Shown here: positions 33,807 to 38,173 of the stretch, piece by piece
Position numbering within the stretch: position 1 is the first letter of the stretch
Layout of the letters: every line of letters begins with the position of its first letter
NCBI RefSeq assembly: GCF_024832785.1
Contig: NZ_CP116615.1
Location: 2,108,001-2,172,000, forward strand
DNA length: 64,000 bases
DNA from: Fontisphaera persica
GTDB lineage: Bacteria > Verrucomicrobiota > Verrucomicrobiia > Limisphaerales > Fontisphaeraceae
Direction: 5' to 3'
Program-made: the position numbers and the translations under genes
The notes under the pieces: generated by a model
Seen by the model: only the letters and a program-made list of their open reading frames with translations
Database searches by the model: none
Told to the model about the DNA's origin: nothing

Positions 33807-34604
33807 CTAGCTCGACTCCTTATTTATCCACCCCCGCCAGCGATACAACGCCCACGCCAGTTTTTCCCGGACATACAGCGACATTTTCACCAATCCTTGG
33901 TACCGCGGCACCAGGTTGAACGAGGGCGGACCTTCCAGACTGACCGAAGTTTTGAAATCACATGGCACGGGAATGACTGGCACCCCCGCTGTTTTGAAAC
34001 AGGCCACGGCCCGCGGCATGTGATACGCGGAGGTAACCAACACCACCTGCTTCCATCCGCGCTCCCGGCAAAGCTGCGCCACTTTCAGCGCCTCCTCGCG
34101 GGTGTTATCACAGCCGCCCAAACTGATGACCGGAGCTTGGGGCAGTTGCCAGGCCTCCAGCCATTTTCGCACCATGTCAGCCTCCACGCGCTTTTGGCCG
34201 TCAGGCAGGGCGGCTTCCGCTCCGCCCAACACCAGGGCGCGCCCCCGGCCCAGGCGCATCAATTCCAAGCCCATGAACAGGCGGTCACCATCAGCCGTGA
34301 CGCCCAGCCCAAAGGCATCCAGCCGGGAAGGCTCAAAGCCGCCGCCCAGCACCACCACGGCATCGGCCACGGGCAATTCAGGCAACGGTGGCGCCAGATG
34401 TTGCTTTTCCAGCCGCCCGAGCAGCCAGCCGGAAAATCCTGTGCTGCCCACGACAAACATCAGCAGGGCCAGCAGCCCTGGCAGGAGCGCCAGCCGCCAG
34501 CGTTTGCGCGACAGGGCCCACAAGGTGAACAACCCCAAGGCAGCCCACACCAGGCCGACCGGCTCCAGAAGGTTGAACACCATCCGTTGCAGATTGGTGA
34601 TCAT
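33807..34604 (-). CDS. DUF218 (YdcF/SanA-like) membrane protein
   Basis: 265 aa from the ATG at 34604, which overlaps the aldehyde dehydrogenase stop (ATGA). Two N-terminal transmembrane segments (GLVWAALGLFTLWALS and LALLPGLLALLMFVVGSTGF), then the DUF218 domain: ADAVVVLGGGFEPSR, RALVLGGAEAALP, EEALKVAQLCRERGW, VVLVTSAYHMPRAVACF. The arrangement with two N-terminal helices resembles ElyC, implicated in envelope biogenesis; the link with the microcompartment genes upstream is only operonic. Confidence 0.8.
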   Translation of the reverse strand: MITNLQRMVFNLLEPVGLVWAALGLFTLWALSRKRWRLALLPGLLALLMFVVGSTGFSGWLLGRLEKQHLAPPLPELPVADAVVVLGGGFEPSRLDAFGLGVTADGDRLFMGLELMRLGRGRALVLGGAEAALPDGQKRVEADMVRKWLEAWQLPQAPVISLGGCDNTREEALKVAQLCRERGWKQVVLVTSAYHMPRAVACFKTAGVPVIPVPCDFKTSVSLEGPPSFNLVPRYQGLVKMSLYVREKLAWALYRWRGWINKESS

Positions 34605-36055
34605 GCCTTCCACACCATGATGCGCCGCTCGGTCATGCCCTCGATGGCGTAACGGACGCCCTCCCGCCCCAAGCCCGACTCCTTCCAACCCCCGTAAGGC
34701 ATCACATCCGCCCGCCAGGTGGGCACATCGTTGACCAGCAAGCCGCCCACTTCGAGCGTCTCAAAGGCCTGCTGAATGGCCGGCATGTCGCGAGTGAAAA
34801 TCCCCGCCTGCAAACCATAGGGAGAATCGTTGATTAACCGCAACGCCTCTGCCCAGTCGCGGTACGGCTCCACCGTGACCACCGGCGCAAATATCTCCTG
34901 GCAATTCACCTTCATGGCGGGGGTGGTGCGCGTTAAAATCATGGGCGGCATCAGGTTGCCGCGAGTTTCGCCGCCCAAAACCACTTTGGCCCCGTCCTGC
35001 AGGGCCTCCTGCACCCACGCCAGGGCGCGGCGGGCCTCCGCTTCGGAAATCATGGGGCCTACGTCCGTTTCCTCGTCCAAGGGATTCCCCACCTTCAGTC
35101 GCCGGGTGCAGGCGATGAATTTCTCCAAGAACGATTCCAGCACCGGCTGATGCACAAAAATGCGCTGTACGCTGATGCAGGTCTGGCCGGCGTAGGCAAA
35201 CCCACCCATGGCGCAGCGCTGGGCGGCGTAGTCCAAATCCGCATCCGAATGCACCGCCACGCCGGCGTTGCCGCCCAGCTCCAGGGCCACTTTCTTGTGA
35301 CCGGCGATGTCCCGCAGCCGCCAGCCCACCTTGCCGCTGCCGGTAAAGCTCAGGTATTTCATGCGCGGGTCGGTGGCCAATACCTCTGCCAGCGCACCCG
35401 GGCAATGCAACACATTGAAACTGCCGGGGGGAGCGCCGGCGTTTTGCAGAATTTCGGCGAGCCGCAGGGAGGTCAAGGGGGGTTGCGAGGCGGGCTTGAG
35501 CACCACCGGATTGCCGCAGGCCAGGGCTGGGGCGACTTTGTGCGCCACCAGATTCAAGGGAAAATTGAACGGGGTGATTGCCGCCACCGGCCCCAGGGGA
35601 AACCGCCGCACCAAGCCTTGGCGGCCCTCGCTGGCGGCGTCCAGGTCCAGCGGCAGCCATTCGCCCCGCAGGCGTTTGGATTCCTCCACCGCATCGGTAA
35701 AAGTCAAAATGGCGCGGGCCACCTCAGCCCGGGCGTACTTCAGCGGCTTGCCCGCCTCCAGGGCTATGAGCCGCGCGATGCCCTCCCGGTCGGCTTTCAA
35801 ACCCGCCACCACGCCTTCCAAAATGGCGGCGCGCTGATGGGTGGGCAGGCGGCGGGTGACGGCAAAGGCGCGCTCCGCGCATTGAATGGCCTGCTCCAGA
35901 TGCGCCGGCGAAGCCCGATGCACCCGCCCCGCCACCGCGCCGTCATAAGGCGAGCGAATGTCCACCACCGCCTCGCCGTCCACCCATTCACCGCCAAGGA
36001 ACAGCCGGAATTCCGGGGGCGCGGCAGGTTCAGCGGGAATGGTGGCATCAGCCAT
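34601..36055 (-). CDS. NAD(P)-dependent aldehyde dehydrogenase, microcompartment-linked
   Basis: 484 aa, full-length ALDH fold. Cofactor site ITPFNFPLNLVAHKVAPALA and SFTGSGKVGW, general base Glu in VALELGGNAG, nucleophilic Cys in YAGQTCISVQR, and the late EIFAPVVTVEPY and NDSPYGLQAGIFT motifs. The Cys context (GQTCIS) is that of classical, non-acylating ALDHs, not of the CoA-acylating PduP/EutE group. It lies 14 bp downstream of a BMC-T shell gene and a PduS-like gene, so it may oxidise an aldehyde inside or at a microcompartment. There is no obvious encapsulation helix; the N-terminus MADATIPAEPAAPPEF is just an Ala/Pro linker. Confidence 0.88.
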   Translation of the reverse strand: MADATIPAEPAAPPEFRLFLGGEWVDGEAVVDIRSPYDGAVAGRVHRASPAHLEQAIQCAERAFAVTRRLPTHQRAAILEGVVAGLKADREGIARLIALEAGKPLKYARAEVARAILTFTDAVEESKRLRGEWLPLDLDAASEGRQGLVRRFPLGPVAAITPFNFPLNLVAHKVAPALACGNPVVLKPASQPPLTSLRLAEILQNAGAPPGSFNVLHCPGALAEVLATDPRMKYLSFTGSGKVGWRLRDIAGHKKVALELGGNAGVAVHSDADLDYAAQRCAMGGFAYAGQTCISVQRIFVHQPVLESFLEKFIACTRRLKVGNPLDEETDVGPMISEAEARRALAWVQEALQDGAKVVLGGETRGNLMPPMILTRTTPAMKVNCQEIFAPVVTVEPYRDWAEALRLINDSPYGLQAGIFTRDMPAIQQAFETLEVGGLLVNDVPTWRADVMPYGGWKESGLGREGVRYAIEGMTERRIMVWKA

Positions 36056-36069
36056 GGGCGGGACAGGCG

Positions 36070-36621
36070 TTAGATGACCTCCCGATATACGTCCGGGTGG
36101 GGCCGGGAAATGACCACCGCGTTGACCAGCACGCCGGCATCAGCGATGATTTTTTTGCCCGCGGCCACCGCCGCCTGTACCGAGCCGACATCGCCAGTCA
36201 TGGTCACAAAAGCCTTGCCCCCCAGCGCCATGGCCAGCCGGATTTCCATCAAGGTCACGCTGGCGGCTTTGGCGGCGGCATCCGCCGCCTGCAACAATGT
36301 GGCCACGTTGAACGATTCCAGAATCCCCAAGGCGCCCGTCGGCTCGCCGGGGTGCGTGCGGCCCAGAGCGGCGATGACGTCCTCATGCACGTTGGTGATG
36401 ACAAACTGGTCAATAAGGCACCCGTTGGCCGCCGCCGCGCCCGATTCCACCGCGCTTCTAACGGCGGCCGCGTCGCCCCCGATGAGCACCATGTACTTGC
36501 CGGAGCAAATGGAGCGCGACAAAATCAACCGCACATTCCCCGCCTTGAGCATGGTGTCGGCCACCTGAAATCCGCTGGCCACACTGGACAACTCAATCAA
36601 ACCAATGGCTCGTTCTTTCAT
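36070..36621 (-). CDS. Tandem-domain bacterial microcompartment shell protein (BMC-T, PduT-like)
   Basis: 183 aa made of two BMC domains: residues ~3-88 (AIGLIELSSVASGFQVADTM and KYMVLIGGDAAAVRSAVESG) and ~95-183 (GALGILESFNVATLLQAADA, KAASVTLMEIRLAMALGGKA, MTGDVGSVQAAVAAGKKI). BMC-T proteins form pseudohexamer shell tiles. Cys39 in SRSICSGKYMVL matches the place where PduT holds a [4Fe-4S] cluster in the central pore (Cys38), which would pass electrons across the shell. The PduS-like gene directly upstream (20 bp) is the known redox partner type. No BMC-H or BMC-P gene occurs in the window. Confidence 0.92.
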   Translation of the reverse strand: MKERAIGLIELSSVASGFQVADTMLKAGNVRLILSRSICSGKYMVLIGGDAAAVRSAVESGAAAANGCLIDQFVITNVHEDVIAALGRTHPGEPTGALGILESFNVATLLQAADAAAKAASVTLMEIRLAMALGGKAFVTMTGDVGSVQAAVAAGKKIIADAGVLVNAVVISRPHPDVYREVI

Positions 36622-36640
36622 GGGATAAAAAAGGGTTGGC

Positions 36641-37957
36641 TCACAAAACCGCCAGGGAAATGCGCTCGGGCGTCACCGCTGCCACCCGCCCCGCCAGCGG
36701 CGCATGCAGCGTGGCGCCCAGGGCGTTGGGGGCAGGCGCCGCGATGATTTGCCCGGCCTTGACGGTGTCCCCCACCTTCACCTGCGGTTGGGCGGGCGCG
36801 CCCGCGTGCTGTTTAAGGAGCAAGTGCAGTTCCCGGGGGCGCCCCTTCCATTCGCGCAGCGGCGCCGGCACATCGTATTCCTGGACGTGCAGCTTGCGGG
36901 TCAGCGCCTGGATGGGCACACGGCGCCCTTCCCGCAAGGGATGCACCTGCACCTCCATTTTGCCGCTCCATTTCTGGTTGGCGCGGCGCATGGCGGCCTT
37001 CGCGTCATCGCAGGCTTCCTTGGGATACAGCTCCTCCGGGCAGGCGTAGAGCGTGCACAAGCCGCAGGAGCAGCAAAGGGCCGCCCACTGGTTCCAGTAT
37101 TCCGCGCCGGTGGCAGTGAAAGCCAGGCTGCGCATCACCTGATGCGGCTCCACGGCGTACCCGAGCAAATACCGCGGGCAAAACTCCGTGCAGTAACGGC
37201 ACTGGTCGCAGGCTGATTTGCCGATTTGCGCCATGCGCGGCTGGGGATTGAGCTTGCGTTGGATGATGTGATGCTCACGCGGCAACACCACCACCCCGGT
37301 GGCGGTCTTGGTCACCGGGGTGTCCAGGTCCAGCGTGGTTTGTCCCATCATCAATCCGCCAATGCACAACACCGGCTCCGCCGTGGTGGCGCCGCCGGCG
37401 GCCTCCAGGCATTCCCGCCACGTGACGCCCACCGGCACCACCAGCGTGCAAGGCTCGCGCACGGCGCCGGCCAGGGTCACCATCTTGTGCGTGACCGGCT
37501 GGCCGCGCGCGGCTCGGGCCACATTGACAAACGTTTCCACGTTATTGACCACCACCCCCACATTCAGCGGAATGCCCTGCGGCGGAATGAGTCTTCCCGT
37601 CACGGTGTACACCAAATCGTATTCATCTCCCGAGGGGTAATAATCCCCCAGCAACTCCAGCCGCAAAGGTGTCCCGGCAATGGCCCGGGTCACGGCCTCG
37701 ATGGCTTTTTTCTTTTTGGCCTTGATGCCAATCACGCCGGTTTGCGCGCCCACCGCTTCCATAGCGAGCAGCATGCCGTCCCGCATCTCCTGCGCCCACT
37801 CCTCCATCACCACCGCGTCTTTGTGGAGCAGCGGCTCGCATTCCGCGCCGTTGGCAATCACGGTATCCGCCTTGGCGGACAGTTTGACGTGGGTGGGAAA
37901 GCCGCCGCCGCCCGCGCCCACCACGCCGGCTTGCCGGACTTGTTCTACCAGGCTCAT
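36641..37957 (-). CDS. PduS-like (RnfC-type) Fe-S flavoprotein
   Basis: 438 aa from the ATG at 37957 (MSLVEQVRQAGVVGAGGGGFP; the open frame runs 47 codons further upstream but that part is not protein-like). RnfC-like features: GAGGGGFPTHVKLSAKADT, INGAECEP-type NGAECEPLLHKD, NVGVVVNNVETFVNVARA; two ferredoxin-type [4Fe-4S] motifs CDQCRYCTEFCP and CCSCGLCTLYACP; and a C-terminal barrel-sandwich domain (VKVGDTVKAGQIIAAPA). In the Pdu system PduS is a cobalamin reductase that binds PduT. Here it is probably an electron carrier for the BMC-T shell protein encoded next; there is no B12 enzyme in the window. Confidence 0.88.
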   Translation of the reverse strand: MSLVEQVRQAGVVGAGGGGFPTHVKLSAKADTVIANGAECEPLLHKDAVVMEEWAQEMRDGMLLAMEAVGAQTGVIGIKAKKKKAIEAVTRAIAGTPLRLELLGDYYPSGDEYDLVYTVTGRLIPPQGIPLNVGVVVNNVETFVNVARAARGQPVTHKMVTLAGAVREPCTLVVPVGVTWRECLEAAGGATTAEPVLCIGGLMMGQTTLDLDTPVTKTATGVVVLPREHHIIQRKLNPQPRMAQIGKSACDQCRYCTEFCPRYLLGYAVEPHQVMRSLAFTATGAEYWNQWAALCCSCGLCTLYACPEELYPKEACDDAKAAMRRANQKWSGKMEVQVHPLREGRRVPIQALTRKLHVQEYDVPAPLREWKGRPRELHLLLKQHAGAPAQPQVKVGDTVKAGQIIAAPAPNALGATLHAPLAGRVAAVTPERISLAVL

Positions 37958-38173
37958 CGTGCGCAAGTGTAGTGGCGGACGAAGAAAACTCAAATCCAAA
38001 GCGCAGGAGGACACTGCCGGTCCCGCGCAGGTGTTTCCCGCCGCCCATGGATTGTCGCTGTCACCCCGCCAGTTGGAGCCAGCCCGGCAAACTGGCAACC
38101 GTCAGTGCACGGCAAAAAATCCACGTGCACTTTGAGCAGAGCAAGCTAATGTTTCGGTCACCTGAACGAACTT

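Follow-up and report, generated by a model that had tools for sequence, protein, structure and literature searches.

A PduS-PduT gene pair of Fontisphaera persica, satellite of a fucose/rhamnose microcompartment locus and its probable electron-export unit

We analysed a 64,000-nucleotide stretch of Fontisphaera persica DNA (assembly GCF_024832785.1, contig NZ_CP116615.1, positions 2,108,001-2,172,000 of the forward strand), called the window below, whose coordinates are used unless another stretch is named. At 33807-37957 it carries four genes, all on the minus strand, in the order PduS-like, PduT-like, aldehyde dehydrogenase (ALDH) and DUF218 (Table 1). The first two encode an electron-transfer protein and a shell protein of the BMC-T type of bacterial microcompartments (BMC). 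A preliminary description, made from the sequence alone, had called the four genes tightly packed, and they are present as it placed them, with intergenic gaps of 19 and 14 bases (PduS/PduT and PduT/ALDH), followed by a likely 4-base overlap of ALDH and DUF218. Its four family assignments agree with Pfam (Complex1_51K, BMC, Aldedh and DUF218). It had also proposed that the genes are either a satellite redox module of the planctomycete/verrucomicrobial microcompartment (PVM) for fucose and rhamnose, or part of a different BMC type. For the PduS-PduT pair, the former proposal is strongly supported by the results below.

In the window PduS, the Pfam domains follow one another as Complex1_51K (E 1.9e-45), SLBB, Fer4_17 and a C-terminal RnfC_N. 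The protein aligns collinearly and end to end with PduS from the 1,2-propanediol utilization (PDU) locus of Ilyobacter polytropus, with 38% identity over 436 aa; in that locus, PduS is annotated near a diol dehydratase. A glycine-rich loop and two tetracysteine motifs (CxxCxxCxxxC and CxxCxxCxxxxC) are given for PduS in PMC2982820. The glycine-rich NADH loop, CxxCxxCxxxCP and CxxCxxCxxxxCP were all found in 35 of the 36 PduS sequences examined, window copy included, the exception being a split copy in genome G106; the frameshifted PduS of genome G164 lay outside this set. The NCBIfam model TIGR01945 (rnfC) scores above its cut-off on the window PduS (255.8 versus 245.95), so that the unit may escape notice in automatic annotation, and slightly below the same cut-off on the PduS of genome G162 (233.3). 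An RnfC subunit of the membrane Rnf complex was rejected, as the RnfC_N barrel is C-terminal instead of N-terminal and the domain order is that of PduS.

PduT contains two BMC domains (Pfam, 7.1e-44) and is 40% identical to the Ilyobacter PduT over 173 residues. Its AlphaFold model (pLDDT 91.3) was matched by Foldseek to the solved BMC-T 3nwg (TM 0.93) and to PduT 3pac (TM 0.88). The candidate Fe-S ligand Cys39, which the preliminary description had pointed out, is indeed there: it aligns with the Cys of solved relatives, is invariant in all 27 of the 37 orthologues that were aligned, and stands in the sequence CSGKY, which follows the PduT pore motif C-P/S/A-G-K/R/S-Y/F reported in PMC6325248. 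The PduT equivalog TIGR02526 has a cut-off of 250.3 bits, above the scores of both the window protein (130.1) and the Ilyobacter PDU-locus protein (133.4). Since the Ilyobacter PDU-locus pair scores likewise, the NCBIfam results for the pair, with rnfC passing and the PduT equivalog failing, are misleading. Judged by their sequences and by the PduT model, the window proteins are genuine members of the PduS and PduT families.

All other BMC shell genes of the genome, three BMC-H and three BMC-P, lie in a single locus 2.0 Mb from the pair, at 131.7-137.1 kb of the contig. The genes of this main locus come in the order PduL, BMC-H, BMC-H, acetate kinase, BMC-H, BMC-P, ALDH, BMC-P, BMC-P, class II aldolase (PF00596, E 1.1e-42) and a gene that we call x19, with a DeoR regulator gene beside them. 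The operon ALDH falls in the PRK15398 subfamily (566.5 bits versus a cut-off of 403), which we take to be EutE/PduP, and begins with an amphipathic helix followed by a Pro-Ala linker; the C-terminal helix of the aldolase, which follows a Pro-Ala stretch, is weaker. L-rhamnose isomerase is encoded in the genome (PF06134, E 1.3e-197). The presence together of aldolase, BMC-H, BMC-P, a CoA-type ALDH, PduL, acetate kinase and DeoR identifies the locus as the PVM gene set.

The genome search for BMC-H/BMC-P, aldolase and PduL genes that the preliminary description had suggested thus found all of them, in one locus, and the case of a genome devoid of any other BMC gene does not arise. Its second choice, a different BMC type, was abandoned, because, apart from this PduT, the shell genes of the genome all belong to a single PVM locus: of the five PF00936 domain matches two fall in PduT itself, and with the three PF03319 matches they leave no second BMC type. 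We accordingly regard PduS-PduT as a satellite of the PVM compartment. Satellites as defined in Axen 2014 are incomplete, contiguous sets of shell genes in genomes that have a full BMC locus at another place, and both features are found here; with PduS adjoining, the pair would probably be termed "satellite-like" in the scheme as that text presents it.

Two further genes of the main locus deserve mention. A PF05635 gene (23S rRNA-intervening-sequence-protein; L006:14765-15181) lies within the PVM operon, between acetate kinase and BMC-H. The x19 gene (L006:9318-10595, C1:129318-130595 in the genome) probably starts within the end of the aldolase gene; it occurs in 37 of the 107 usable PVM loci and has no Pfam match. 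The model obtained for it, of low confidence (pLDDT 67), is similar to the barrels of class I aldolases such as ADH synthase and LsrF, and its end is a helix that follows a disordered, Pro-rich linker, similar to an encapsulation peptide. On this model, x19 is possibly a second encapsulated aldolase-like enzyme.

In a sample of 384 genomes of the class, PduT gave 47 matches at E <= 1e-15. Among these, 37 were orthologues (at least 54% identity), two of them decayed; the other ten were tandem BMC-H genes read through stops (six) and other BMC-T proteins at 28-34% (four). BMC-P was present in 36 of the 37 genomes with PduT, versus 128 of 384 overall, and in the 37th, G318, PduL and two BMC-H genes stand at a contig end that cuts the PVM locus. 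PduS adjoins PduT in every one of the 37, with broken-up copies in G106 and G164. In 10 of the 37 the pair is in or beside the PVM operon: it follows the aldolase in 3, precedes PduL in 2 and lies beyond DeoR in 5; it is away from the operon in the remaining 27. Its layout requires at least 6 changes on the pair's own tree. Distances between pairs were correlated with those between operons (Mantel r 0.45, with none of 2000 permutations as high), for 33 of the 37 genomes.

A similar pattern was seen among named records, where the best 80 of at least 487 stretches encoding relatives were retained. By title, 71 of these belonged to Verrucomicrobia or to groups within that phylum, 7 were just called "bacterium" and 2 were Latescibacterota. 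PduS was adjacent in 79 of the 80, the remaining locus being cut 100 bases upstream, and 24 of the 80 were linked to PVM genes. Some records seem to be present in both sets, so these counts are not independent of those from the 384 genomes. The two Latescibacterota records, L181 and L192, are metagenome-assembled genomes titled Candidatus Latescibacterota and carry close PduS-PduT pairs (72-73% PduT identity), which reflects transfer, misbinning or mislabelling. Matches on plasmids (17 records) were all below 60% identity and came from Salmonella, Escherichia, Listeria and similar. In a phylum sample of 387 genomes searched at E <= 1e-25, 7 matches belonged to the same class and one, at 34%, lay outside it; how many of these genomes are from outside the class is not given.

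Other gene arrangements were encountered in this survey. Four genomes (G254, G005, G021 and G055; stretches L057, L058, L213 and L219) carry another BMC locus type, with BMC-H, BMC-P, ALDH, a BMC-T of its own at 28-34% and further BMC-P, and no PVM aldolase recognised in the stretch. Three others (G024, G290 and G320; L115, L253 and L257) show, besides an aldolase homologue, three matches to BMC-P and four to BMC-H; none of PVM ALDH, PduL or acetate kinase was recognised in the stretch. LutA-like (CCG) genes occur near the PVM operon or near PduS-PduT in L059, L061, L063, L075, L078 and L116, accompanied by LutB-like genes in five of the six; these clusters were named by homology, with one or two members scanned. 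Such neighbours fit lactate as the product of the pathway.

A lactate/malate dehydrogenase (LDH) has been predicted to recycle NAD+ in PVM compartments, as reported in Axen 2014. None was found within 18 kb around the PVM operon of F. persica. Main loci were fetched for 125 of the 128 genomes with BMC-P (G112, G217 and G379 were left out) and for G318, giving 126. Ten without aldolase, 3 without the PVM ALDH and 5 ending less than 900 bases after the aldolase were dropped, leaving 108, and G260, which has neither trait, had too few genes to be placed on the tree, so that 107 loci were usable. LDH counted as present wherever it stood in the fetched stretch. The decayed pair of G106 was scored as negative, and G164, where a decayed pair coexists with LDH, was dropped by its contig end. 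LDH was present in 54 of the 107 loci, that is, in 7 of the 32 with an intact PduS-PduT pair versus 47 of the 75 without it (Fisher p 1.3e-4). On a tree built with FastTree from the compartment genes, which is not a species tree, Pagel's test of correlated evolution gave a likelihood ratio of 11.3, and 9 of 400 simulated independent nulls were as high (p about 0.02). Under the fitted model, loss of PduS-PduT is about 7 times faster with LDH present, and gain of LDH about 6 times slower with PduS-PduT present. The pair and the operon LDH tend to be mutually exclusive, and correction for descent weakens this exclusion.

No diol dehydratase (PF02286) was found in any of the 37 genomes with PduT, in a search where no control was matched, and a repeat on 7 genomes in which the control did match was also negative. 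PduS acting as cobalamin reductase for a diol dehydratase was rejected on these grounds. A glycyl-radical enzyme (GRE) of the pyruvate formate-lyase-like (PFL-like) family PF02901 was not found in F. persica, in a search with matched controls; such enzymes are present in 13 of the 37 genomes, each on a contig apart from PduT and from the listed BMC-P. Since no diol dehydratase was found in the 37 genomes and no GRE in that of F. persica, the cobalamin and glycyl-radical roles do not fit this compartment.

The C. freundii PduS is described in PMC2982820 as an NADH-dependent flavoprotein with two [4Fe-4S] clusters, which reduces cobalamin, binds PduT and could export electrons; the PduT cluster is placed there at +99 mV. 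Given the need to recycle NAD+, the tendency to exclude LDH and the lack of a fitting cobalamin or glycyl-radical role, we infer that PduS-PduT is an accessory electron-export unit of the PVM fucose/rhamnose microcompartment that re-oxidises lumenal NADH, and give this reading a probability of about 0.6. In this scheme, the class II aldolase would make lactaldehyde in the lumen, and the encapsulated CoA-acylating ALDH would convert it to lactyl-CoA, forming NADH inside the shell. PduT would assemble into the PVM shell with PduS docked on its inner face. PduS would take the electrons of NADH via flavin mononucleotide (FMN) and its two [4Fe-4S] clusters, and pass them outward to a [4Fe-4S] cluster held by three Cys39 in the PduT pore, then to a cytosolic acceptor. 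Lumenal NAD+ would be regenerated without turning half of the lactaldehyde into 1,2-propanediol, a job that would otherwise fall to the LDH-type enzyme of PVM operons, which the pair would replace. By extension, and more tentatively, PVM compartments might be built to two redox designs, of which one would be closed and LDH-type, wasting lactaldehyde as propanediol, and the other open and electrically connected, with PduS-PduT delivering electrons to cytosolic acceptors. If so, all of the lactaldehyde could be oxidised in the open design.

The two other genes of the cluster concern this proposal as well, as the preliminary description had counted them in the module. Its reading of the ALDH as non-acylating is reasonable, in that the Glu (ELGG) and Cys (GQTC), which we take to be the usual ALDH signatures, are both kept; they do not prove non-acylating chemistry. 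Among NCBIfam models listed, the highest score is to the lactaldehyde dehydrogenase equivalog, at 452.3, below the cut-off of 650. ALDH21 comes first among PDB matches and the M. jannaschii lactaldehyde dehydrogenase fifth. The DUF218 protein scores 54.6 bits with PRK10494 (ElyC), below the cut-off of 205. The start of the DUF218 gene is likelier at the internal ATG 34604, which overlaps the ALDH stop by 4 bases, than at the mechanical 34688; that of PduS was set at ATG 37957, residue 1 of both proteins in the Ilyobacter PduS alignment, the mechanical open reading frame beginning upstream, at 38098.

Table 1. Genes of the cluster, in window coordinates.
Feature	Position	Strand	Length	Basis
PduS-like NADH:FMN / 2x[4Fe-4S] electron-transfer protein, predicted	36641..37957	-	438 aa	Pfam domains, Ilyobacter PduS alignment, cofactor motifs
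PduT-like BMC-T shell protein, pore Cys39	36070..36621	-	183 aa	two BMC domains, AlphaFold model, Foldseek
Conventional ALDH, probably non-acylating	34601..36055	-	484 aa	Aldedh E 1.4e-143
DUF218 (ElyC-like) protein	33807..34604	-		DUF218 E 5e-23; start = likely ATG

Adjacency does not favour a four-gene module. ALDH and DUF218 adjoin PduS-PduT in 2 of the 37 genomes, F. persica (G000) and its genus-mate G013, and this ALDH adjoins PduT in none of the 80 named loci, 8 of which end less than 700 bases from PduT. The sister genus encodes a 69% identical ALDH relative, on a contig other than that of PduT. Unlike the operon ALDH, the satellite ALDH has no N-terminal helix-plus-linker extension; an amphipathic 15-mer (moment 0.53) occurs within its last 30 residues, at the end of the Aldedh domain and not preceded by a linker. 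From its position, the ALDH is probably co-transcribed with PduS-PduT, and it probably stays outside the compartment; the DUF218 protein is probably unrelated to the latter. We thus consider both as probable bystanders, lineage-specific companions in the operon.

This bears on a variant of the proposal in which all four genes act as one unit, with the conventional ALDH oxidising leaked or lumenal lactaldehyde to lactate and handing NADH to PduS. The tight spacing, the lactaldehyde dehydrogenase found as top NCBIfam model and among the best PDB matches, and the C-terminal amphipathic 15-mer speak for such a unit. We nevertheless judge it improbable, in view of an adjacency confined to G000 and G013, the unlinked ALDH of the sister genus, a score below the equivalog cut-off and the missing linker at either end. 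That the PduT tile would chiefly change the permeability of the shell, electron flow through PduS-PduT being secondary, has a precedent in PMC8217296, which proposes that satellite shell proteins in general may serve to alter permeability. Against it, PduS accompanied PduT wherever the contig was long enough to show it (37/37 and 79/79) and Cys39 is invariant (27/27); this too seems quite doubtful.

Electrons could also flow inward through a pair set in the PVM shell, to reduce a lumenal enzyme or to repair a cofactor. The PduS of PDU reduces cobalamin (PMC2982820), an activase-reduction role was proposed for compartments built on a GRE (GRM; PMC6325248), and a PFL-like GRE exists somewhere in 13 of the 37 genomes with the pair. 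A suitable client is what was not found: no diol dehydratase in the 37 genomes (control matched only in the 7-genome repeat) and no GRE match in F. persica, while the GREs of other genomes are on contigs apart from PduT and the listed BMC-P. We therefore hold inward flow to be unlikely. Finally, the pair might be a relic under relaxed selection, as the split or frameshifted copies of G106 and G164 could indicate; cofactor motifs that are intact in 35 of 36 PduS and 27 of 27 PduT, in proteins 54-98% identical to those of the window, make this very improbable.

Electron export by PduS-PduT has several observations against it. The PduS and PduT clusters are reported to be O2-labile (PMC6325248, PMC2982820) and degradation by PVM compartments is described as aerobic (Axen 2014), so that cluster lability sits awkwardly with aerobic use. 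The exclusion of LDH was not significant in an independent-pairs test (10 pairs, median p 0.25), and both systems are found in 7 of the 32 loci with the pair, neither in 28 of the 75 others, which means that neither system is indispensable. In G106 (L055) and G164 (L056), the PVM locus was kept and PduS-PduT was split or frameshifted. The main-locus aldolase reaches no NCBIfam equivalog cut-off, so that the PVM gene set is the basis for assigning its substrate. Shared regulation with the main operon is also unsupported: an element recurring upstream of PduL was found before PduS in none of the 35 genomes tested out of the 37, and in at least two copies before PduL in 24 of the same 35.

This element consists of AGATxTTG / TTGxAAGAT-like repeats, found upstream of PduL in many PVM loci including that of F. 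persica (PduL at L006:17167-17892), and it is a candidate DeoR-type operator. At least two such elements precede PduL in 51 of 117 cases, versus 0.6% of base-shuffled sequences, with a pattern chosen from the same sequences. Because it was picked from PduL upstreams, only the zero before PduS is informative. In the linked genomes, PduS-PduT may be read from another promoter.

The PduS-PduT kit is known from other organelles, and we did not find it described for the fucose/rhamnose compartment. PduS-PduT in PVM compartments was not encountered in titles and abstract openings, supplements and most subscription texts being beyond the scope of this search. The text of Axen 2014, as far as it was available, does not connect PduS/PduT with PVM. 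PMC8217296 gathered the neighbours of any shell gene, and its supplement may therefore hold these satellites, so we are not certain of priority in reporting the pair in PVM. The role of PduS in GRM compartments is described as open in PMC6325248. The function of PduS and PduT has been difficult to establish, because the compartments from which they are known contain B12-dependent or glycyl-radical enzymes as well, and these could give the pair other tasks. Here the pair accompanies an aldolase compartment, and neither enzyme was found in the genome; electron transfer across the shell is therefore the simplest role, and a testable one. If confirmed, it would change the redox balance and the products that are predicted for Verrucomicrobia feeding on polysaccharides rich in fucose and rhamnose.

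Compared with PDU and GRM compartments, the pair shows the same tandem pduS-pduT, domain order, Cys ligands and PduT fold. It differs in that no B12 diol dehydratase was found and no GRE in the F. persica genome, the signature enzyme being an aldolase, and in that the pair is away from the operon in 27 of 37 genomes. The closest counterpart in substrate is GRM5, a fucose/rhamnose compartment combining aldolase and GRE, where PduS/PduT are present in 57 of 57 loci (PMC6325248). GRM5 shares with the present system a fuculose/rhamnulose-phosphate aldolase and PduS/PduT; it dehydrates 1,2-propanediol by a GRE, of which none was found in this genome. With the PVM compartment, F. persica has in common the aldolase, ALDH, PduL, acetate kinase, three BMC-P, BMC-H and the DeoR regulator. 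The PVM shell is given as BMC-H and BMC-P only in the review PMC11346464, whereas this genome, whose own operon is without LDH, adds to them PduS and a BMC-T.

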